From Rhodospirillaceae bacterium (lineage in GTDB: Bacteria; Pseudomonadota; Alphaproteobacteria; GCA-2731375), in NCBI GenBank assembly GCA_018667855.1, contig JABIRL010000332.1, positions 1 through 35,402 of the forward strand: DNA of 35,402 nt. The letters are read 5' to 3'. Positions 6,873-28,874 of this stretch are shown here, piece after piece (within the stretch, counting starts at the first letter, position 1; every line of letters begins with the position of its first letter). Position numbers and translations under genes: made by a program. Under the pieces are notes generated by a model. It was not told where the DNA came from, made no database searches, and worked only from the letters and a program-made list of their open reading frames with translations.

Positions 6873-7199
6873 ATGGCAAATGACAACGGTGACGATGCCC
6901 GGATTTTGCGTCTGTCGGAACAGGACAATGTGGTGGTGCTGATCCAATCCGTGCCGGCGGGCGAGCGGTTGCGGCTAGACGGCCAGGAACTGGTCATGGC
7001 GGCGGGTCTGGATCTGGGGCACAAGCTGGCCTTGCGGGCCGTGCCGGCTGGCGAAACCATCGTCAAATACGGCGCGCCCATCGGCTCGGCCACCGCCGAT
7101 ATCTCGTTCGGCGCCCATGTCCATACCCACAATATGAAAAGCGAATATATCGCCAATTATTCCGAGGATGACCCTTACGAGGCGGAGGACGGATCATGA
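6873..7199 (+). CDS. UxaA-family hydrolase, small (SAF-domain) subunit
   Basis: 108 residues corresponding to the N-terminal SAF domain of altronate/galactarate dehydratases. It contains ILRLSEQDNVVV near the start, the GHKLALRAVPAGETIVKYGAPIG core and the AHVHTHNMKS signature that contributes to the metal and substrate site. In some bacteria this domain is fused to the large subunit; here it is a separate gene overlapping the next by four bases (ATGA). ATG 6873 is preceded by GGGAG about 10 bases upstream. The two proteins together should dehydrate a sugar acid such as altronate, galactarate or a related aldonate to a 2-keto-3-deoxy acid. The exact substrate is not determined. Confidence 0.88.
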   Translation: MANDNGDDARILRLSEQDNVVVLIQSVPAGERLRLDGQELVMAAGLDLGHKLALRAVPAGETIVKYGAPIGSATADISFGAHVHTHNMKSEYIANYSEDDPYEAEDGS

Positions 7200-8395
7200 T
7201 CAACTCTTATCTGCGCCAGGACGGGCGCAAGGGCATCCGCAATGTGGTGGTGGTCGCCTATCTGGTGGAATGCGGCCACCATGTAGCGCGCAAGATCGCA
7301 CAGCCGTTCGAGGACCGGGAAGAGCATGACGTGCATGTGATCGGCTTTCCGGGCTGCTTTCCCAACGCCTATGCCGACCGCATGATGCGGGCCCTGACCA
7401 CCCACCCCAATGTGGGCGCCGCGCTGTTGGTTTCCCTGGGTTGCGAAAGTTTCGACGGCCAGGGCCTGAAGGCTCATGTCCAGGCCTCCGGCCGGCCCGG
7501 TGAATTGATGATCATTCAACGGGACGGCGGCACGCGCAGCACGGTCGAGGCCGGGCGGGCCTGGGTGGAAGAGGCATTGACGACGTTGCAAGGCACGCCG
7601 CGCGTCGATATGAAACCAAACGAGCTTGTCGTCGGTACCATTTGTGGCGGTTCGGACGCCACATCCGGCCTGACCGCAAATCCGGCCATGGGGCGGGCGT
7701 TCGACATGCTGGTGGACCTGGGTGCGGCCTGCATATTCGAGGAAACGGGCGAGCTGATCGGCTGCGAACAATACATGGCGGATCGCGCCGTGACGCCGGA
7801 GTTGGGCCAGGCTATCGTTGACAGCGTGGCCAAGGCGCACCGCCACTATCACACCCTTGGACATGCCTCGATCTCCGTGGGCAATGCTTTTGGCGGTCTG
7901 ACCACGATCGAGGAGAAATCAATGGGCGCCTACGCCAAATCAGGCTCGGCGCCAATTTCGGGGCTTCTGAAACCCGGCGATATTCCGCCCAAGGGCGGGC
8001 TATATCTGTTGGACATGGTGCCCGACGGCGATGTGCGCTTCGGCTTTCCCTCCATCAACGATACGGAGGAAATTGGCGAGCTGATCGCCTGCGGCGCCCA
8101 TGTGGTGATGTTTTCCACCGGCCGCGGCTCCGTCGTCGGCTCCGCCATTTCGCCGGTGATCAAGGTCTGCGCCAATCCCGAAACGTTCGAGCTGTTATGG
8201 GACGATATGGACATCGATGCCGGCCGGATCCTGCAAGGCGAGGCGAGCTTGGAAGAGGTCGGCAAGGAAATTCGCAACAATGTCCTGGCCGTGGCTCAGG
8301 GCACGTTGACCAACTCCGAGGACCTGGGCCATCAGGAATTCTGCATGAAATACAAACGGTTCGAGCCGATTGGCCCGGAGTGTTTGCCGGCATAG
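7196..8395 (+). CDS. UxaA-family hydrolase, large subunit (altronate/galactarate dehydratase-like)
   Basis: 399 residues matching the catalytic C-terminal domain of UxaA/GarD dehydratases. Motifs include GFPGCFPN (50-57, Cys54), SLGCES (80-85, Cys83), the GTICGGSDATSGLTANP block (147-163, Cys150) and STGRGSVVGSAISPVIKVCANP-like sequence near residue 310. These form the metal site and active-site lid in the family. The gene begins inside the last codons of the small subunit, so the two are made together. It ends 15 bases before a strong hairpin (8410-8442). The substrate is probably an acid sugar; the family also covers non-sugar hydroxyacids. Confidence 0.88.
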   Translation: MINSYLRQDGRKGIRNVVVVAYLVECGHHVARKIAQPFEDREEHDVHVIGFPGCFPNAYADRMMRALTTHPNVGAALLVSLGCESFDGQGLKAHVQASGRPGELMIIQRDGGTRSTVEAGRAWVEEALTTLQGTPRVDMKPNELVVGTICGGSDATSGLTANPAMGRAFDMLVDLGAACIFEETGELIGCEQYMADRAVTPELGQAIVDSVAKAHRHYHTLGHASISVGNAFGGLTTIEEKSMGAYAKSGSAPISGLLKPGDIPPKGGLYLLDMVPDGDVRFGFPSINDTEEIGELIACGAHVVMFSTGRGSVVGSAISPVIKVCANPETFELLWDDMDIDAGRILQGEASLEEVGKEIRNNVLAVAQGTLTNSEDLGHQEFCMKYKRFEPIGPECLPA

Positions 8396-8401
8396 GTGGC
8401 G

Positions 8402-8442
8402 CAAAAAAAGAGTGGCCGGCGCCAATGGCAAACCGGCCACTC
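8402..8442 (-). terminator. Rho-independent terminator for the peroxiredoxin unit, possibly bidirectional
   Basis: A perfect 10-bp stem (GAGTGGCCGG 8410-8419 with CCGGCCACTC 8433-8442) encloses a 13-base loop. Read on the minus strand the hairpin runs into a seven-base T tract (the complement of 8403-8409), giving a textbook intrinsic terminator just after the stop at 8461. On the plus strand the hairpin follows the UxaA stop by 14 bases but lacks a good T tract, so it would work less well in that direction. Confidence 0.88.
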
Positions 8443-8460: not shown

Positions 8461-8904
8461 TTAGCCTAGATCGGCCAACACTTGATCGGGATGTTCCGCC
8501 GGCACCACGGTGTCATACACCTTGGCGATCTTGCCGTCAGGGTCGATCAGGAAACTGAAGCGGGCCGGGTACGGCTTATCCGCCTGGATAACGCCATAGG
8601 CGGCGCCCGCGACCTGATCGGGATCGCTCAACAGGTCAAACGGAAAACTGAACTTTTCCTGAAAAGCGCGGTTGTCCTCGGGCGTATCGAACGAGGCCCC
8701 CAGGATCACGGCATTCTTGGCTGTAAAGTCTTGGATTCGATCACGGAACCCTTTGCCTTCAACGGTTCAGCCAGGTGTGTCGGCCTTGGGGTACCACCAC
8801 AAGACCACATGGTGCCCCTTGTACTGTTCCAGGGTGGTATCGGCCCCCTGTTGATTTCGCATGGAGAAGGCAGGTGCCAAATCCCCCACTTTCGGTAATG
8901 CCAT
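8461..8904 (-). CDS. Probable selenocysteine-containing peroxiredoxin (Bcp/AhpC-TSA type)
   Basis: Read through one in-frame TGA, this is a complete 147-residue thioredoxin-fold peroxiredoxin. It has KVGDLAPAFSM near the N-terminus, VVLWWYPKADTPG (33-45), TGA as codon 46, then TVEGKGFRDRIQDF and a normal C-terminal half with GASFDTPEDN and SFLIDPDGKIAKVYD. In Bcp-type peroxiredoxins the residue after DTPG is the peroxidatic cysteine, so the TGA sits exactly where selenocysteine would replace cysteine. There is no other cysteine, so reduction would need an external thiol. ATG 8904 has AGGAG eight bases upstream. A SECIS-like hairpin follows the TGA at 8724-8761. It would reduce peroxides in the cytoplasm. 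The alternative is a recent nonsense mutation, which I think less likely. Confidence 0.83.
8724..8761 (-). promoter_or_regulatory. Candidate bacterial SECIS hairpin
   Basis: Starting six bases after the TGA, the minus-strand mRNA can fold into a two-part stem. The upper stem has six pairs (GGGUUC with GAAUCC, including one G-U). The apical loop is seven bases, CGUGAUC, with G in second position. An internal loop of AAA/AA follows, then a lower stem of six pairs with one G-A mismatch (UGAAGGC with GACUUUA). The apical loop begins 21 bases after the TGA, within the range known for SelB-binding elements in bacterial coding regions. The fold was done by eye; no energy was calculated. Confidence 0.6.
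8767..8769 (-). other. In-frame TGA at the peroxidatic Cys codon (putative Sec46)
   Basis: The codon reads TGA on the minus strand. It interrupts an otherwise intact peroxiredoxin frame between DTPG and TVEGKGFRD. TGA differs from the cysteine codons TGC and TGT by one base, so cysteine/selenocysteine exchange and a nonsense mutation are both one step away. The catalytic position and the downstream hairpin favour recoding. Confidence 0.75.
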
Positions 8905-8934
8905 TACAGTCTCTCCTTTATTGTCATGGCTGTC

Positions 8935-21442: not shown

Positions 21443-21603
21443 TTCGCTCCAGCCACGCGGTTATGGGTCCAATTGCGGCGGATGGTACCCGAAAGACAGG
21501 GTTTGTCAAAACGCAACTGCGCTAGATTAATTTTGAGGTGAATTCGGGGGCGCAATTGCTGAACAAACCGTATAAAATGCGGCAACAAAAATGGGGAGGC
21601 ATA

Positions 21604-23661
21604 ATGAGTAGCCGTTTGGGCGTGGATGTCGGTGGCACTTTCACCGATTTGTTGCTGTTCAACGAACAGAATAGTGAATTGCGCCTTTTGAAGACGCCGT
21701 CGACACCGCAAGATCAGTCCATCGGCATCATGAACGGCATCTCGCAGTTGATTGCCGAGACGGGCATCAGCCCGTCCGAGATCAATGCATTGCTGCATGG
21801 CACCACGGTCTCCACCAACATCGTGCTGGAGGAAAAGGGCGCCAAGGTGGGCTTGCTGGTCACCAAGGATTTCGAACAGGTTCTGCATCTGGCCCGCAGT
21901 CAGACACCGGGGCCCCTGGCCGGCTGGATGATCATGGAAAAGCCGGATCCACTGGCGGATCTGGAATTGACCCGCGGCATCCCCGAACGGGTCGATGCCC
22001 ATGGCGATGTACTGACCCCCCTGGACGAAAATGCCGCCCGCCAGGCGGTGCGGGAGTTGATCGATGCGGGCGTCGAGGCCATTACCATCTCGTTACTGCA
22101 TTCCTATGCCAACCCGGATCACGAGCGGCGCCTGCGCACGATTGTCGAGGAGACCGGAGCGGATATCCCGATCTCGCTGTCGTCGGATATCCTGCCGGAG
22201 TTTCGGGAGTATGAACGCACCCTGGTAACCGTGATGAATGCCTATGTGGGACCGTCCATGCGGCGATATCTGGCAAATTTTGAGGAAAAACTGAAAAGCA
22301 TTCAGTTTTCGCCGCACGTGAATATCGTTCGCTCCGACGGTGGTTTGATGTCGGTGCGCCGCGCCTCCGATACGCCAGTCCATACCATGTTGTCGGGGCC
22401 GGCGGGCGGTGTCTCGGGCGCGGCGTTTCTGGCCACCCTGGCGGGTTACGAGGATGCGTTGGGCTTCGACATGGGCGGTACTTCCACCGATGTCTCGTTG
22501 ATTCAGAACGGCGAACCGTTGATTTCGCGGCAGACATCCCTGGGTTATTACCCCCTCAAGGTGCCTTCCGTGGAAGTTCATTCCGTGGGCGCGGGCGGCG
22601 GTTCGATCGCCCATGTGCCCATGACCGGCGCCCTGCGCGTGGGCCCTGAAAGCGCGGGGGCGGCACCCGGTCCTGCCTGTTACGGCCATGGCGGCGATCA
22701 ACCAACCGTCACCGACGCCAATCTGCTGCTGGGACGGCTTCCCGCCCGATTGCTGGATGGCAAGATGAGCCTGGATGTAAAGGCGGCCGAGGACGCGGTG
22801 GGCAAGATCGCCCGCGCCCTGGGCCTGGATCTGCATCAGGCGGCCCAGGGTATTCTGGATATCGTCAACGAAAACATGTTCGGCGCCCTGCGCCTGGTCA
22901 GTGTGCAAAAAGGTCTGGACCCGCGGGATTTCGCCCTGGTGGCGTTTGGCGGCGCCGGTCCTTTGCATGGCAACGCCATGGCCATGCTGGGCAATTGCTA
23001 TCCGGTTATTGTCCCGCCGACGCCGGGCGTGCTGTCGGCATTGGGCTTTCTGTATTCGGACGTGAAGAACGAATTCGCCCAGACCTATGTGCGCAACGTA
23101 GCCGACGCCGATGGCGCCCAGTTGGCCGAAATCTATGCCCGTCTGGGCCGCGAGGCCCGCGGCTGGCTGCGCGAGGAGGGCATTGACGAGGGGCGCCAGG
23201 AGCTCAGCTATCAGGCCGATGTGCGTTACTTCCGCCAAGGCTATGAATTCGCCTTGAAAATTAATCCGGAGAGCCTGAGCAACGGCGGTCTGGCCGATCT
23301 GGAGGCCCGCTTTGGCGCGGCTCACGAAAGATTGTACGGCTTCCGCCTGGAACAGCCCGTCGAACTGGTTAACCTGCGCGCGGTTGGCGCCGGCCAGGTC
23401 GAAAAGGTGCAGTTGCCCAGTTTTGATTTAGAAGCTCCCGATGCCTCGGCGGCGGTGTATGAACAACACCGGGTTTATTTCGACGGCGGCTTTTTGAATG
23501 CCAACATTTATGACCGTAAGCAGCTGCGCGCCGGCCATCGCTTGGTCGGACCGGCGGTGGTCACCCAAGCGGATTCGACAACCGTCATCCATCCAGGTCA
23601 TGTTGGCGTCGTGGACCGGTATCTCAATATTCTGATCTCTCTCGAAGGTAGGCAGGACTAG
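21604..23661 (+). CDS. hyuA: Hydantoinase/oxoprolinase subunit A (HyuA)
   Basis: 685 residues. The N-terminal Hydant_A_N domain opens with LGVDVGGTFTDLLLF, a phosphate-binding loop of the ASKHA ATPase fold. The Hydantoinase_A core includes NIVRSDGGLMSV, LSGPAGGVSGAAFLA and GFDMGGTSTDVSL (adenosine and metal sites) with HSVGAGGGSIAHV. The C-terminal region has NLRAVGAGQVEK. With HyuB it forms an ATP-dependent hydrolase or carboxylase that opens cyclic amides (N-methylhydantoin, 5-oxoproline) or acts on ketones. GGGGAGG precedes ATG 21604, and only three bases separate its stop from the hyuB start. The substrate is undetermined. Confidence 0.93.
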   Translation: MSSRLGVDVGGTFTDLLLFNEQNSELRLLKTPSTPQDQSIGIMNGISQLIAETGISPSEINALLHGTTVSTNIVLEEKGAKVGLLVTKDFEQVLHLARSQTPGPLAGWMIMEKPDPLADLELTRGIPERVDAHGDVLTPLDENAARQAVRELIDAGVEAITISLLHSYANPDHERRLRTIVEETGADIPISLSSDILPEFREYERTLVTVMNAYVGPSMRRYLANFEEKLKSIQFSPHVNIVRSDGGLMSVRRASDTPVHTMLSGPAGGVSGAAFLATLAGYEDALGFDMGGTSTDVSLIQNGEPLISRQTSLGYYPLKVPSVEVHSVGAGGGSIAHVPMTGALRVGPESAGAAPGPACYGHGGDQPTVTDANLLLGRLPARLLDGKMSLDVKAAEDAVGKIARALGLDLHQAAQGILDIVNENMFGALRLVSVQKGLDPRDFALVAFGGAGPLHGNAMAMLGNCYPVIVPPTPGVLSALGFLYSDVKNEFAQTYVRNVADADGAQLAEIYARLGREARGWLREEGIDEGRQELSYQADVRYFRQGYEFALKINPESLSNGGLADLEARFGAAHERLYGFRLEQPVELVNLRAVGAGQVEKVQLPSFDLEAPDASAAVYEQHRVYFDGGFLNANIYDRKQLRAGHRLVGPAVVTQADSTTVIHPGHVGVVDRYLNILISLEGRQD

Positions 23662-23664
23662 GCC

Positions 23665-25971
23665 ATGAACGAACAAAATCCAGAGCGCGGGCGGATGTCC
23701 CTGGACGATTTGTTGCAGTCCAACAAAGCGCAGTTCGACAAGGTTTTCGCCACTCAGATGGATGAGACAGGCCTGTTGTCTTCCAACCACCGCCCCACCA
23801 CCGCGGCCGATCTGGAATCCGCCAGCATGGCCGCATCGCCCACTGCCTCGATCAATGTCGATGATGTGACCGCACACCTGAATGCCCGCTATGGCGGCGC
23901 CTGGTCCTCGGAAATTCTGGAACACAAGGCCGAACGCGGCGGCGTCAGCGTGTTGGTCAAATTGACCGTCGATGGTGTCTCGAAAATGCAATTTGGCAGT
24001 GCCCGGGCCAATGGCGACACGGGTAAGGCCCTGCAACGGGCGACCGACGATGCCCTGGCTAAATGCGCCGCCATGCTGGGGGACGAAATACCCGGCACAT
24101 CGGACGCGGCGGTGGAGGCGGCAACGCCACGACAGCGTCCCGCGCCGCAGGCGGCCCCCGCCAACCCCACTGCCCGGGCCGCCCCGGGTGGCGGTAAGCT
24201 GGATGTTGTCAGCCTAGATCTGATCGAAAATTCCCTGCGTAACGCCCGCCATGAAATGGACGCGGTGCTGTTCCGCTCCGCCATGTCGCCGGTGATCCGC
24301 GAACAACACGATGAATATCCCATGATCACCGACCCCAAGGGCCGCATGATTGTCGGACAGTTCGGTTCCTACGTTCCGGAAATGCTGAAGTCTCAGAGCT
24401 TCGATCTGGTGCCGGGCGATGTGATTCTACAGAACGACCCCTTTCAGTGCGGCGGCGCGGTCAGCCATATCAACGACTGGATTATCCTGGTGCCGGTGTT
24501 CTTCCAGGGCGGGTTGGTCGGCTTCACCTCCATGTTCGGGCATATGATGGACGTGGGCGGCCCGGTGCCCGGTTCCATGCCGACGGCGGCGACCTCGATC
24601 TTTGGCGAGGGGTTGCGCATTCCGCCGATCAAACTGTACGAGGCGGGCGTGTTGAATCAGGCCGCGCTTGACCTGATCATGACCAACACGCGCACGCCGG
24701 AGATGAATTACAGCGACTTGATGGCGATCATCGCCGGGTGCCGGGCCGGCGAACGCCGCGTTATTGAACTGTGCGAGCGGTTCGGCGCCGATATCTACGC
24801 CCAGGCCTGCGATGCGCTGCTGGAGCGGACCGAGCGGGCCATGCGCACCCTGATCGTGCAGAACCTGCCGACCGAGCCGCAATCGTTCGAGGATTATGTC
24901 GACGACGACGGCTGCGGCAACGGTCCCTTCAAGATGAAGCTGACGGTCTGGCGCGAAGGGGAACACGCCTTTTTCGACTGGACCGGCACCGCCGCGCAGG
25001 CACCGGGACCGATTAATTTCTATCTGCACGACGGCATGTTCAAGATGTTTATTGGCGTCTACATGATCATGGTGTTCGATCCGCAGATCCTGTTCAACGA
25101 CGGCTTTTACGACCTGATCCACGTCACCCTGCCCAAGGGCACATTGGTCCAGCCGGATTTTCCCGCGCCCCTTGGCTGTCGCACTCACACGCTTTCACGG
25201 CAGTTCGATGTGCTGGGCGGCGCCTTGAGCCACAATGCCCCCGACATGGCGACGGCCGCCGGCTATGGCTCCAGCCCGCATTTCCTCTATTCCGGCACGG
25301 ACCGGAACGGGCGCGGCTTCCAGCTGATGGAAATTCTTTATGGCGGCATTCCCGGCCGCCCCATCGGTGACGGCATGGACGGCCATTCCTGGTGGCCGCT
25401 GTTTGAGAATATCCCGACCGAGTATCTGGAAACCTACTACCCGCTGGTGATTGAGGGGTACAATTCGGTCATGGACACGGGCGGGGCCGGTCTGCATCGG
25501 GGCGGCAACGGCATCGAAAAGGTCTATCATGTGCTGGCGGAGGGCGATGTCTCGATCCACGATGACCGCCATGAAAGTCAGCCCTGGGGCATTCTGGGCG
25601 GCAAGCCCGGCGCGGTGTCGGCAAAATGGCTCATTCGCAAGGGCGGCGAAAAATCACCGCTGCCTTCGAAAATTGACAACGTCCGCGTGCAGCCCGGCGA
25701 CCGCGTGGTTTTCCGCACCGCCGGCGGCGGCGGCTGGGGTGATCCGTTGGAGCGGGAACCGGGCAAGGTCCGCAAGGACGTTGCCCGCCGCCTGCTGACG
25801 TCGGGCTCCGCACGGGATGATTACGGCGTGGTTTTGCAGGGTGCGGAGCTGACGGTTGATCTTCGCGCGACCCAGGAATTGCGTGAAGGTACGAAACGAA
25901 ACCGCCGGCCGCTGCCAATGTTTGACTTCGGCGCGCGGCGCGGTGGCGTTACGAATGGTTCGAGTGGTTAA
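23665..25971 (+). CDS. hyuB: Hydantoinase/oxoprolinase subunit B (HyuB) with extra N-terminal domain
   Basis: 768 residues, about 180 longer at the N-terminus than a usual HyuB. The catalytic Hydantoinase_B domain starts near residue 179 (LDVVSLDLIENSLRNARHEM) with FRSAMSPVIREQHDE, GDVILQNDPFQCGGAVSHINDW, DWTGTAAQAPGP and TGGAGLHRGGNGIE as typical blocks. Before it lie a Ser/Asp-rich lead (1-60), a compact domain (61-140: VDDVTAHLNARYGGAWSSEI, GVSVLVKLTVDGV, KALQRATDDALAKCAAMLG) and a Pro/Ala linker (141-177). The compact domain looks Rad52- or dsRBD-like (inference). It should complex with HyuA in the cytoplasm. Confidence 0.9.
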   Translation: MNEQNPERGRMSLDDLLQSNKAQFDKVFATQMDETGLLSSNHRPTTAADLESASMAASPTASINVDDVTAHLNARYGGAWSSEILEHKAERGGVSVLVKLTVDGVSKMQFGSARANGDTGKALQRATDDALAKCAAMLGDEIPGTSDAAVEAATPRQRPAPQAAPANPTARAAPGGGKLDVVSLDLIENSLRNARHEMDAVLFRSAMSPVIREQHDEYPMITDPKGRMIVGQFGSYVPEMLKSQSFDLVPGDVILQNDPFQCGGAVSHINDWIILVPVFFQGGLVGFTSMFGHMMDVGGPVPGSMPTAATSIFGEGLRIPPIKLYEAGVLNQAALDLIMTNTRTPEMNYSDLMAIIAGCRAGERRVIELCERFGADIYAQACDALLERTERAMRTLIVQNLPTEPQSFEDYVDDDGCGNGPFKMKLTVWREGEHAFFDWTGTAAQAPGPINFYLHDGMFKMFIGVYMIMVFDPQILFNDGFYDLIHVTLPKGTLVQPDFPAPLGCRTHTLSRQFDVLGGALSHNAPDMATAAGYGSSPHFLYSGTDRNGRGFQLMEILYGGIPGRPIGDGMDGHSWWPLFENIPTEYLETYYPLVIEGYNSVMDTGGAGLHRGGNGIEKVYHVLAEGDVSIHDDRHESQPWGILGGKPGAVSAKWLIRKGGEKSPLPSKIDNVRVQPGDRVVFRTAGGGGWGDPLEREPGKVRKDVARRLLTSGSARDDYGVVLQGAELTVDLRATQELREGTKRNRRPLPMFDFGARRGGVTNGSSG

Positions 25972-26057: not shown

Positions 26058-28874
26058 ATGTTAGAAGTTGGAATTGCGCTGCTGATCACGGCCATCGTCG
26101 TCATCGCGATCCTCTATATAATTTCCATTTGGATCTACAAGCGGGCGCCGTCGAACATGTGCTTCATCCGCACCGGGTTTCGCGGCACCAAGGTTTGCCT
26201 GGGCAAGGGCGCCCTGGTTCTGCCGGTGTTCCATGAAGTCAGTTGGGTATCCCTGGAAACCTTAAAATTGATCATTTCCCGGTCCCGGGATCAAGCCATC
26301 CTGACATCGGACAATATCCGGATTGATGTGGCGGTGGAACTATATACCCATGTGGGCCACACGGATAACGCGGTGCTGGTCGCGTCGCGCAGTCTGGGCG
26401 AAAAGACGTTCGATTCCGATCAGGTACGCAACCTGCTTGAAGCCAAGGTGGTCGGCGCCCTGCGCAGCTATGCCGCGACCAAGACCTTGAAGGAATTGCA
26501 TCAGCACCGGGACGATTTCGCGACCGACATTCGCAGTGGCGTGACCGAAAGCTTCACCGCCAACGGGTTGGTATTGGAAGAGGTCTCCATCGTCACCCTG
26601 GAACAGTCGGGCAAGGAGTTTTTCCGCACTGACAACGTCTTTGACGCCGAAGGTTTGAAGGTGATCACCGAGATAACTTCGGATGCCCGGCGCAAGGTGC
26701 ATGACACGGAAAAACGCACTACGGTGTCGATCCGGCAAAAGGATTTGGATACCCAGCTGGAACTGTTGGAAATCGAACGCCACGAGGCCGTGGCGCGGGC
26801 CAATCAGGACAAGGAAGTCGCCAACGAGCAGGCCAAGCAGCTGGGCGAGAAGCAGATCTATGTCCTGGATCAGCGCATGGGCGTGGAAGAAAAGGAAATC
26901 GACAACGAAAAGACCCTCGAGCGCATGCGTACCGAACGTGATCTGGCCATCACGGAGGAGGCAAAGCGCCGCGAAACCGCCGAAATTCAGAAAGAGCTGG
27001 CGCTAGAGAAGGAACGCCGGGACCGGGAGATTGATCTGATCGCCAAGGCGCGGGAAGAAGAACTTGCCAATATCGCCCGTAACCTGACCTTGGAAAAGGC
27101 CGAGCGGGACCGCCAGATCGAGCTGGTCGCCAAGGCCAAGGAATCCGAGCTGGCGGAAATTGACCGTTCCCTGGTCCGGGAACAGGCGGAAAAGCAGCGG
27201 GAGATCGAACTGTCGCAAAAAGAGCGGGAACGTCAGCAGACCGAAATTGCCCGCGTCACCGCCGTCATGGCGGAAGAAGAAGCCGCCCGCGATGCCCGTC
27301 ATGCTGCAGCGGAGGAGGCCAGCCTGGCCGTCCGTAAGCGGGCGCTGGAAACCCGCCTGGAGATGCTGGATCTGGACAAGGCAGAAAGCTTCGCGGCCGT
27401 CAAGCAGGAACAGGAAGTGGCCAATGAGAAGGCCAGGGTATTGAGCGAACAGCAACGCTTTATTCTGGATCGCCGCTGGGAAGTGGAGCAAGAAGAAATT
27501 CAAAAGGCCGAGTCCCTGGAGAAAGCGCAGATCGAAAAAGAAGCCGCCGTCATCCGCCAGGGCGGCGCAACGCACGCGGCCGAGATCTCGCGCAGCCTGG
27601 CCCGGCAAAAGGCGGAACGGGATAGCGAAATTGAACTGATCGGCAAGGCGGAGGAGCTGGAACGCGCCGAAATCCGCCGTACCCTGGCCCGGGAACAGGA
27701 AGAGCGCGACCGGCAGATCGCCCTGGTGGCCAAGGCCAAGGAGCTGGAAGAGGTCGAGGTACAGAAGGATCTGGCGATCGAGCTGGAACAGCGCCAGCGC
27801 GATATCACCCTGATCGAAAAGGACAAGGAGCGGGAGGCTGCCGATATCCGTCGCCTGGAAGCCCGGGAGGTGGAGGAACGCAACCGGGAAATCGCCATTG
27901 TGCAGAAGACCCGGGAACTGGAAGCGGCCGAGGTCGAGCGTCTTTCGACAACGGCCGAGAAGGAAGGCGCGCAGCATCGTGTCGAATCCGTACGCTTGGT
28001 GGCCGATGCGGAACGGGCCAAGGACATCGAGCAGATCGATGCCGAGATGCTGGCCGAAATCCGCCGCATCGACGAGGAGAGCAAGGCGGCCATCACCCGC
28101 ATGCATATGATCACCCAATCGGAGGCCCGCAAGCTTTCGGCGGAACAGGAATCGGACGCCACCATGATCCGGGCCCGCGCCTCGGCCGAGGCGCAGAAGA
28201 TCGCTGCCGAGGGGATCGAGAAAGAGGCCGCCGCGGCCGGCCGGGCGGAGGCGGAGGTCGAAAGCCTGCGCGTCGCCAATACCCAGCGCATGTTGCAGGC
28301 CGAGGCCAGCGGGATGGAGGCCAAGGCGGATGCACTGAAGAAATACAACGAGGCCGCAACCTTCCTGGAGCTGGCCAAACTGTCCATCGAGGCGGACCGG
28401 GATGTTCACATCGATCAGGCCAAGGCCATGGGTAACGCCCTGGAGGGCGCCCAGATCCGTATGTATGGCGGCGGCGACGGCACCGTGGATACCATTCGCG
28501 GCCTGTTTACCCAGGGCTTCGGTGTTGGCGAGGTATTGGAAGGTTTCGCCCAGTCCATGCCCGACGGCCTGCGCCAGCGCTTCAACGCCAACGGCCTGCG
28601 CGGCCTGTTCGGGCGCCCCTATGGCCAAGGCAGCCTGCGCGAGGCGGCGGATCATCTGGCCGCGCTCGTGGATAAGACTTTGAGCTCTAAGAAATCCCGG
28701 GAGGCCAATTTTCCGGAAGCCCTGGACAAACTGGTTGAGGCCGCGGGCGATGACGAGACCATGGCCCAGACCTTGGGAATGCTGCGGGAGTTGAACAGCC
28801 GCGGCGGGTTTGATGATGTGCCGTTCGAAAGCGTCTGGAATATCATGCAGGCCGTGGCCAAGAGCGCCGACTAG
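26058..28874 (+). CDS. Giant flotillin-like SPFH coiled-coil membrane protein
   Basis: 938 residues, nearly twice normal flotillin length. A membrane helix (about 5-26) precedes a flotillin-type SPFH region (about 30-215, CFIRTGFRGTKVCLGKGALV, then LLEAKVVGALRSYAA). Residues 216-790 are highly charged heptad/hendecad coiled coil. Within it residues 229-428 and 429-628 align without gaps at an offset of exactly 200, sharing for example VANEQAK/VANEKAR and RDRQIELVAKAKE/RDRQIALVAKAKE. A shorter 29-residue period is also clear (units starting at 321, 350, 379 and 521, 550, 579, 608). A globular C-terminus follows. Flotillins oligomerise and organise membrane domains. The gene has no obvious operon partner. 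Confidence 0.88.
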   Translation: MLEVGIALLITAIVVIAILYIISIWIYKRAPSNMCFIRTGFRGTKVCLGKGALVLPVFHEVSWVSLETLKLIISRSRDQAILTSDNIRIDVAVELYTHVGHTDNAVLVASRSLGEKTFDSDQVRNLLEAKVVGALRSYAATKTLKELHQHRDDFATDIRSGVTESFTANGLVLEEVSIVTLEQSGKEFFRTDNVFDAEGLKVITEITSDARRKVHDTEKRTTVSIRQKDLDTQLELLEIERHEAVARANQDKEVANEQAKQLGEKQIYVLDQRMGVEEKEIDNEKTLERMRTERDLAITEEAKRRETAEIQKELALEKERRDREIDLIAKAREEELANIARNLTLEKAERDRQIELVAKAKESELAEIDRSLVREQAEKQREIELSQKERERQQTEIARVTAVMAEEEAARDARHAAAEEASLAVRKRALETRLEMLDLDKAESFAAVKQEQEVANEKARVLSEQQRFILDRRWEVEQEEIQKAESLEKAQIEKEAAVIRQGGATHAAEISRSLARQKAERDSEIELIGKAEELERAEIRRTLAREQEERDRQIALVAKAKELEEVEVQKDLAIELEQRQRDITLIEKDKEREAADIRRLEAREVEERNREIAIVQKTRELEAAEVERLSTTAEKEGAQHRVESVRLVADAERAKDIEQIDAEMLAEIRRIDEESKAAITRMHMITQSEARKLSAEQESDATMIRARASAEAQKIAAEGIEKEAAAAGRAEAEVESLRVANTQRMLQAEASGMEAKADALKKYNEAATFLELAKLSIEADRDVHIDQAKAMGNALEGAQIRMYGGGDGTVDTIRGLFTQGFGVGEVLEGFAQSMPDGLRQRFNANGLRGLFGRPYGQGSLREAADHLAALVDKTLSSKKSREANFPEALDKLVEAAGDDETMAQTLGMLRELNSRGGFDDVPFESVWNIMQAVAKSAD
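26742..27941 (+). repeat. Two tandem 600-bp in-frame repeat units in the flotillin-like gene
   Basis: Unit A (26742-27341) encodes residues 229-428 and unit B (27342-27941) residues 429-628. They align at the protein level without any insertion or deletion, indicating an internal duplication that preserved coiled-coil phase. Divergence is considerable, so the event is old. The DNA copies are no longer closely identical by eye. Confidence 0.7.

Follow-up and report, generated by a model that had tools for sequence, protein, structure and literature searches.

Selenocysteine (Sec)-containing peroxiredoxins (Prx; COG1225/PF00578, with a TxxU motif) are among the established selenoprotein families, being listed in Table 1 of PMC9312934 and in the relevant section of PMC13188914. 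In the passages of PMC1088965 that describe the Sargasso Sea set, Prx, with 43 genes, is the second most abundant selenoprotein family, and the corresponding passages of PMC2398784 report 253 Prx selenoprotein genes in GOS. A 2006 genome survey (PMC1794560), in the part that deals with this group, describes Alphaproteobacteria with a single selenoprotein family. The class is therefore known, as the initial annotation of the present locus had recognized, and was in the literature by 2005 at the latest; the gene described here is a well-supported, ordinary member of it. A literature search that combined selenoprotein, Rhodospirillaceae and peroxiredoxin found no paper.

The gene lies in a window of 35,402 nucleotides, the whole stretch of DNA that was analyzed, which is contig C241 of a draft genome of 5.3 Mb in 371 contigs with a completeness of 94.2%. 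It is almost certainly a selenoprotein gene, in which UGA at codon 46 would be decoded as Sec through SelB and a hairpin to give a 147-residue Bcp/PrxQ peroxiredoxin with a presumed one-Sec catalytic cycle. The observations that support this are a conserved TGA, codon-level conservation of the hairpin, purifying selection on both sides of the TGA, three of the four decoding genes, and a predicted Bcp fold.

The initial annotation, made from the sequence alone, described a Bcp-type peroxiredoxin of 147 residues broken only by a TGA at codon 46, and the read-through frame bears this out. It runs from the ATG at 8904-8902 to the TAA at 8463-8461 on the minus strand and matches the Pfam AhpC-TSA model (PF00578) with 115.5 bits; its translation, MALPKVGDLAPAF...WWYPKADTPGUTVEGKGFRDRIQDF..., has 147 residues and, as had been stated, no Cys. 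Under the standard code the locus holds a single open reading frame, from the GTG at 8709 to 8461, which is the 82-residue fragment that standard gene calling had been expected to return. This frame could be taken to mean that the UGA is a true stop and that the GTG starts a separate 82-residue protein, but a start at codon 66 would leave out the active site, and the stretch that separates the TGA from the GTG, codons 47-60, ranks with the best-conserved parts of the gene; such a two-product arrangement is extremely improbable. The Shine-Dalgarno sequence and the intrinsic terminator had been called intact, and both are (Table 1). A simple consensus terminator scan of the window listed nothing at this terminator, perhaps because a 2-base bulge interrupts the stem. 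Convergent to the peroxiredoxin gene, positions 7196-8395 (+) of the window encode altronate/galactarate dehydratase domains (second and C-terminal); adjoining hydantoinase/oxoprolinase A and B genes occupy 21538-25971 (+), and after them comes a frame of 938 codons (26058-28874) that includes a Band 7 domain.

Table 1. Coordinates of the peroxiredoxin locus in the window and of related features elsewhere
Feature	Location	Strand	Evidence
Predicted Sec-containing Bcp/PrxQ-type peroxiredoxin gene	8461..8904	minus	147 codons + TAA; PF00578 115.5 bits; AlphaFold2 model resembles Bcp structures, e.g. 3drn
In-frame TGA, codon 46, peroxidatic Cys position	8767..8769	minus	TGA in 79/80 homologous loci, TGC in 1
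Shine-Dalgarno AAGGAG	8913..8918	minus	sequence; 8 nt upstream of ATG
Intrinsic terminator, stem-loop 8442-8410 + seven T	8403..8442	minus	folding: -26.2 kcal/mol, z -6.5
Putative SECIS upper stem-loop GGGTTC-CGTGATC-GAATCC	8733..8751	minus	6/6 pairs in 75/80 Sec copies, 0/27 Cys forms
Apical loop of putative SECIS, CGTGATC (second base G, then U)	8739..8745	minus	CGTGA as first five bases in 80/80 Sec copies
Whole predicted hairpin including lower helix	8720..8763	minus	poor conservation of lower helix (60.2% paired cells)
Cys46 copy titled Caenispirillum bisanense	L131 4001-4450		two extra Cys (positions 9, 85), no SECIS stem
Further AhpC-TSA-type TGA matches, other contigs of the MAG	L002 1156-1548; L004 1501-1836; L005 1501-1869	plus; plus; minus	

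A homologue search of named genomes found 152 relatives, of which the best 80 were kept; with the window these make 81 alignment rows, and the 80 Sec copies referred to below are the 79 TGA-form loci together with the window. Of these 80 loci, 79 have TGA at codon 46, which had been placed at the catalytic Cys position directly after DTPG; a lack of homologues with UGA at this site, one of the outcomes named in the initial annotation as refuting, is thus not what was found. The remaining locus, titled Caenispirillum bisanense, has TGC, encoding Cys. Measured against ten close copies, dN/dS ranges from 0.029 to 0.103 upstream of the TGA and from 0.022 to 0.112 over codons 61-147, and the region 3' of the TGA is therefore maintained as protein. 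These results bear on the possibility that a Cys codon was mutated, or misread in assembly, to TGA in a decaying peroxiredoxin gene. In-frame stops in draft MAGs often have such an origin, and selA was not found in this assembly, but a pseudogene or an error is difficult to reconcile with an identical TGA in 79 of 80 loci, purifying selection beyond it, and an intact Shine-Dalgarno sequence and terminator. The annotation's argument against decay thus holds, and the probability left to this alternative is negligible; a sequencing read error, in particular, is very unlikely because the same TGA recurs across many separate assemblies.

The full-length TGA form is present in 13 of 15 genomes of the same order, and the two that do not have it, G010 (84% complete) and G014 (100% complete), both have SelA and SelB; nine assemblies are common to this survey and that of the named genomes, so that their counts are not independent. 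In a sample of the class, at least 12 of 385 genomes, four of them from the order of the window, have the TGA form as a close match (at least 53% identity) among the matches listed, and in two further genomes the best match among those listed is a diverged TGA paralogue. In a sample of 398 genomes from the phylum, a search at E 1e-30 gives matches in 4, and TGA is found only in the window's own genome. The TGA form is thus uncommon in the class and phylum samples. Most locus titles are those of Alphaproteobacteria or Rhodospirillaceae MAGs, and some are of Gammaproteobacteria, including a contig of Thioalkalivibrio sp. HK1; a few name SAR324, Gemmatimonadetes, Phycisphaerae, or Flavobacteriales, and some of the loci with outlying titles may be mis-binned. 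No relative was confirmed in the viral contigs searched.

A hairpin with a 7-base apical loop and G in its second position had been reported to start six bases after the TGA. The loop and its G are as described, but the start is not, since the upper stem begins 15 nt and the poorly conserved lower helix 3 nt past the TGA. The predicted hairpin has an MFE of -10.8 kcal/mol, a 6-bp upper stem (GGGUUC/GAAUCC), and a 7-base loop (CGUGAUC). According to the section of PMC13188914 that sets out rules for bacterial SECIS elements, these have a loop of 3-9 nt, a stem of 4-16 bp, a G as first or second base of the loop, a spacing of 16-37 nt, and an MFE of at most -7.5; the hairpin of the window passes with 7 nt, 6 bp, G2, 21 nt, and -10.8, respectively. 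As coded, however, the same rules are passed by 137 of the window's 970 TGA triplets, this one among them, versus 70 of the 80 Sec copies, the other 10 failing the MFE rules, and when a 59-nt stretch with at least 7 nt of upstream sequence is folded, z is +0.71 and the MFE fold differs. Minimum-energy folding, which had been put forward as a check on the SECIS, was consequently set aside as too weak to serve as proof: a hairpin is present, but its fold by itself is no better than chance, and it is conservation that exceeds chance. A search of the whole window against Rfam at gathering scores gave zero matches. Covariation was also dropped as evidence; the upper stem has zero two-sided pair changes and no measure clearly above shuffles, and the analysis is uninformative because the stem is near-invariant. 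All six pairs are present in 75 Sec copies and five of six in the other 5, and over 76 distinct sequences 98.9% of the cells of the upper stem are paired versus 60.2% of those of the lower helix.

The signal is found in the choice of synonymous codons. A scan of 103 codon columns (those with the majority residue in at least 40 copies, Met and Trp excluded) across the 80 Sec copies, including the window, identified as most over-conserved the codons of Phe53 (TTC in 80/80), Arg54 (CGT in 80/80), Ile57 (ATC in 72/72), and Gly52 (GGG in 74 and GGA in 6). Excess synonymous conservation averages 0.512 over codons 47-59 (n = 13) versus 0.084 elsewhere (n = 87), and the top eight ten-codon windows begin at codons 46-53. 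In a control set of 27 Cys homologues, by comparison, only 1 of the 14 that have Arg54 encodes it by CGT, 13 of the 27 use TTC at Phe53, and none has the six-pair stem, whereas all six stem pairs are present in four of four diverged Sec paralogues that are 39-42% identical. This conservation is regarded as the decisive evidence, at the level of sequence, that the hairpin is a SECIS element. A diverged Sec clade (L039, L052, L153, and L155) retains the SECIS stem-loop but has an active site of the form FGxxUT replacing DTPGUT.

Conservation of the downstream frame would likewise be expected if the UGA were read through as an amino acid other than Sec, such as Trp or Cys, whether through suppression by a near-cognate tRNA or through an altered genetic code. 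However, the residue at position 46 of the 27 Cys homologues is Cys, not Trp, the TGA copies retain the SECIS-type stem, which no Cys copy among the 27 has, and the genome encodes SelB and a tRNA-Sec with a UCA anticodon. Furthermore, 39 of the 79 loci with the TGA form also use TGA to terminate the peroxiredoxin frame, and therefore TGA remains a stop in those genomes. Non-Sec decoding is accordingly given almost no weight, and Sec insertion at codon 46 is the predicted outcome.

It had been suggested that the rest of the genome be searched for selA, selB, selC, and selD, and the search succeeded for all except the first. The tRNA-Sec scores 68.2 bits and SelB 361 bits, and SelD is encoded twice, with scores of 388 and 316 bits; the higher-scoring gene has an in-frame TGA. 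These two SelD genes are at L020 1501-2424 (+) and in L021; one has a Sec-like TGA (GGGUGC) and the other is in a 777-codon frame that may represent the fused type reported from GOS. Two models did not find selA in the MAG. All 14 other genomes that represent the order have SelA, selA directly adjoins selB in the two relatives that were compared (G010 and G014), and the selB of the window's genome runs off the end of its 9893-base contig. Since that contig ends inside selB, the neighbor of selA in both relatives, selA was most likely lost to an assembly gap, and its absence was not accepted as a refutation of the selenoprotein. SelB scores above cut-off in 10 of 10 genomes with the TGA form versus 7 of 22 others (Fisher p 0.0003), but the 32 genomes were hand-picked and are not a random sample, and two of the ten (G126 and G317) have, among the matches listed, the diverged paralogue only. 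Three more AhpC-TSA-type matches in the same MAG each have one in-frame TGA in a redox motif (VWUPPC, SWUGC, and HWUPYC), and the MAG seems, from these sequences, to encode several selenoproteins.

The history of the Sec/Cys exchange was followed in a maximum-likelihood tree built from 111 rows (84 of the Sec family, 26 Cys-type Bcp, and the Caenispirillum Cys copy), which omitted 12 loci that repeat family members (L033-L035, L038, and L145-L152) and four distant ones (L048-L051), and for which the over-long N-termini of L091 and L102 were trimmed. The Sec/Cys label changes twice on this tree, once between the Sec family and the 26 Cys-type Bcp and once at Caenispirillum. The Caenispirillum copy groups with 56 Sec rows in a clade that has support (100/98), but it has a long branch and its exact place is unsure. 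It has Thr52, His56, and Tyr57, and no SelB above cut-off was found in the Caenispirillum genome. From its sequence this copy looks like a Sec-to-Cys reversion. For Prx, the relevant portion of the 2006 survey (PMC1794560) gives 5 Cys-to-Sec events and zero Sec-to-Cys events.

The lack of a resolving Cys had been presented as a feature that makes the window copy worth describing. In two-Cys Bcp, such as the E. coli enzyme, the resolving Cys is five residues past the peroxidatic Cys. The corresponding residue in the window protein is Lys51, and Cys is found at this position in none of the 80 Sec copies versus 11 of the 27 Cys homologues; 39 of the Sec copies have no other Cys at all, and the scattered Cys of the others are commonest at positions 93 (14 of 81 rows), 70 (12), and 72 (9). 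The resolving Cys is therefore absent as described, but across the sequences compared the absence at +5 is a trait of the family and not peculiar to the window copy.

The residues that follow are also unusual in their constancy. Residues 52-56 are Gly, Phe, Arg, Asp, and Arg in all 80 Sec copies; Arg56 is in none of the 27 Cys homologues, and Gly52 in 8 of them. One interpretation, for and against which the balance is about even, is that the peptide following the active site is set by the SECIS hairpin rather than by the enzyme; the RNA may have kept the protein at a constant helix sequence, from which reversion to Cys frees it. Apart from the Caenispirillum copy, however, the 26 Cys comparators are distant (∼35-45% identical), and a protein trait of the clade may instead explain the residues. 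The general idea that a SECIS element within a coding region constrains the encoded protein is not a new one.

The best NCBIfam model for the peroxiredoxin is the Cys-type thiol peroxidase NF006960, with a score of 110.9 bits that is below the curated cut-off of 140; by sequence, the protein is Bcp-like, yet outside this equivalog. An AlphaFold2 model generated from an alignment of 40 sequences has a mean pLDDT of 92.1, although the active-site loop (residues 41-50) is of low confidence (pLDDT 63), and the top PDB matches in a Foldseek search include Bcp1, BcpB, and Bcp4. The predicted fold is thus that of Bcp/PrxQ, and the window protein has the P/T/C(U)/R active-site set of this group, its AhpC-TSA/Bcp domain containing the T-x-x-U motif as T43-P-G-U46. 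Pro39, Thr43, and Arg115, each kept in at least 80 of the 81 alignment rows, presumably form with Sec46 the usual peroxiredoxin active site, the roles of the residues being those generally assigned to them in the family.

In the mechanism proposed, SelB, bound to the hairpin with its conserved stem 15 nt past the UGA, would bring Sec-tRNA-Sec to codon 46, and the ribosome would pass the UGA to complete a Bcp/PrxQ-type peroxiredoxin of 147 residues. If the product is a peroxidase, as presumed, the selenolate of Sec46, positioned by Pro39, Thr43, and Arg115, would attack H2O2 or an organic hydroperoxide and be converted to a selenenic acid, which an external thiol (thioredoxin, glutaredoxin, or glutathione) would then resolve in a one-Sec cycle. 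Resolution by an external thiol is proposed because the window peroxiredoxin is without Cys; if active as a peroxidase, this copy could use no other kind of cycle, and the one-Sec cycle is the likeliest for the whole clade. Among the 80 loci, no cluster of neighboring genes (ORFs of at least 90 aa in fetched flanks of up to 4 kb per side, some ending at contig ends) recurs in more than 8, and those that recur do so chiefly among near relatives; the reductant could therefore not be inferred from the flanking genes.

The conceptual gain is modest, as the class is known; the slight advance is the contrast between Sec and Cys forms at residues 52-57, which suggests a peptide dictated by the hairpin. 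The locus is nevertheless a clean and checkable example of a gene that is halved by standard callers, in a lineage of uncultured Alphaproteobacteria that appears to use several selenoproteins. The comparison of codons in Sec and Cys copies (80 versus 27) offers a simple means of distinguishing functional SECIS elements from hairpins that arise by chance. The apparent reversion is a natural test of the cost of the hairpin to the protein.

With respect to known systems, the closest is the selenoprotein Prx family itself, which, in the parts of PMC9312934, PMC1088965, and PMC2398784 that describe it, is of the same Bcp/AhpC-TSA type, with Thr-x-x-Sec and marine sources. The present loci differ from the Sargasso Sea and GOS genes in being, by title, largely from alphaproteobacterial MAGs, and the likeness is one of description in those passages and not of alignment. 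PrxU of Eubacterium acidaminophilum, to which the reviews refer, likewise has Sec at the peroxidatic site of a peroxiredoxin. Against NF040737, which from its name we take to be the PrxU model, the window protein scores 45.6 bits with a cut-off of 270, and the profile has 233 positions, which places the protein in another subfamily than PrxU. The Cys-type Bcp/PrxQ enzymes (NF006960; PDB 3drn, 5epf, and 3ixr) have the same predicted fold (Foldseek TM 0.85-0.87) and the same active-site residues, but have Cys where the window peroxiredoxin is predicted to have Sec46. AhpE of Mycobacterium tuberculosis (PDB 1xxu, titled 1-Cys peroxiredoxin) has a similar fold (TM 0.86), but it has Cys instead of Sec, belongs to another subfamily, and is 28% identical to the window model in the structural alignment.
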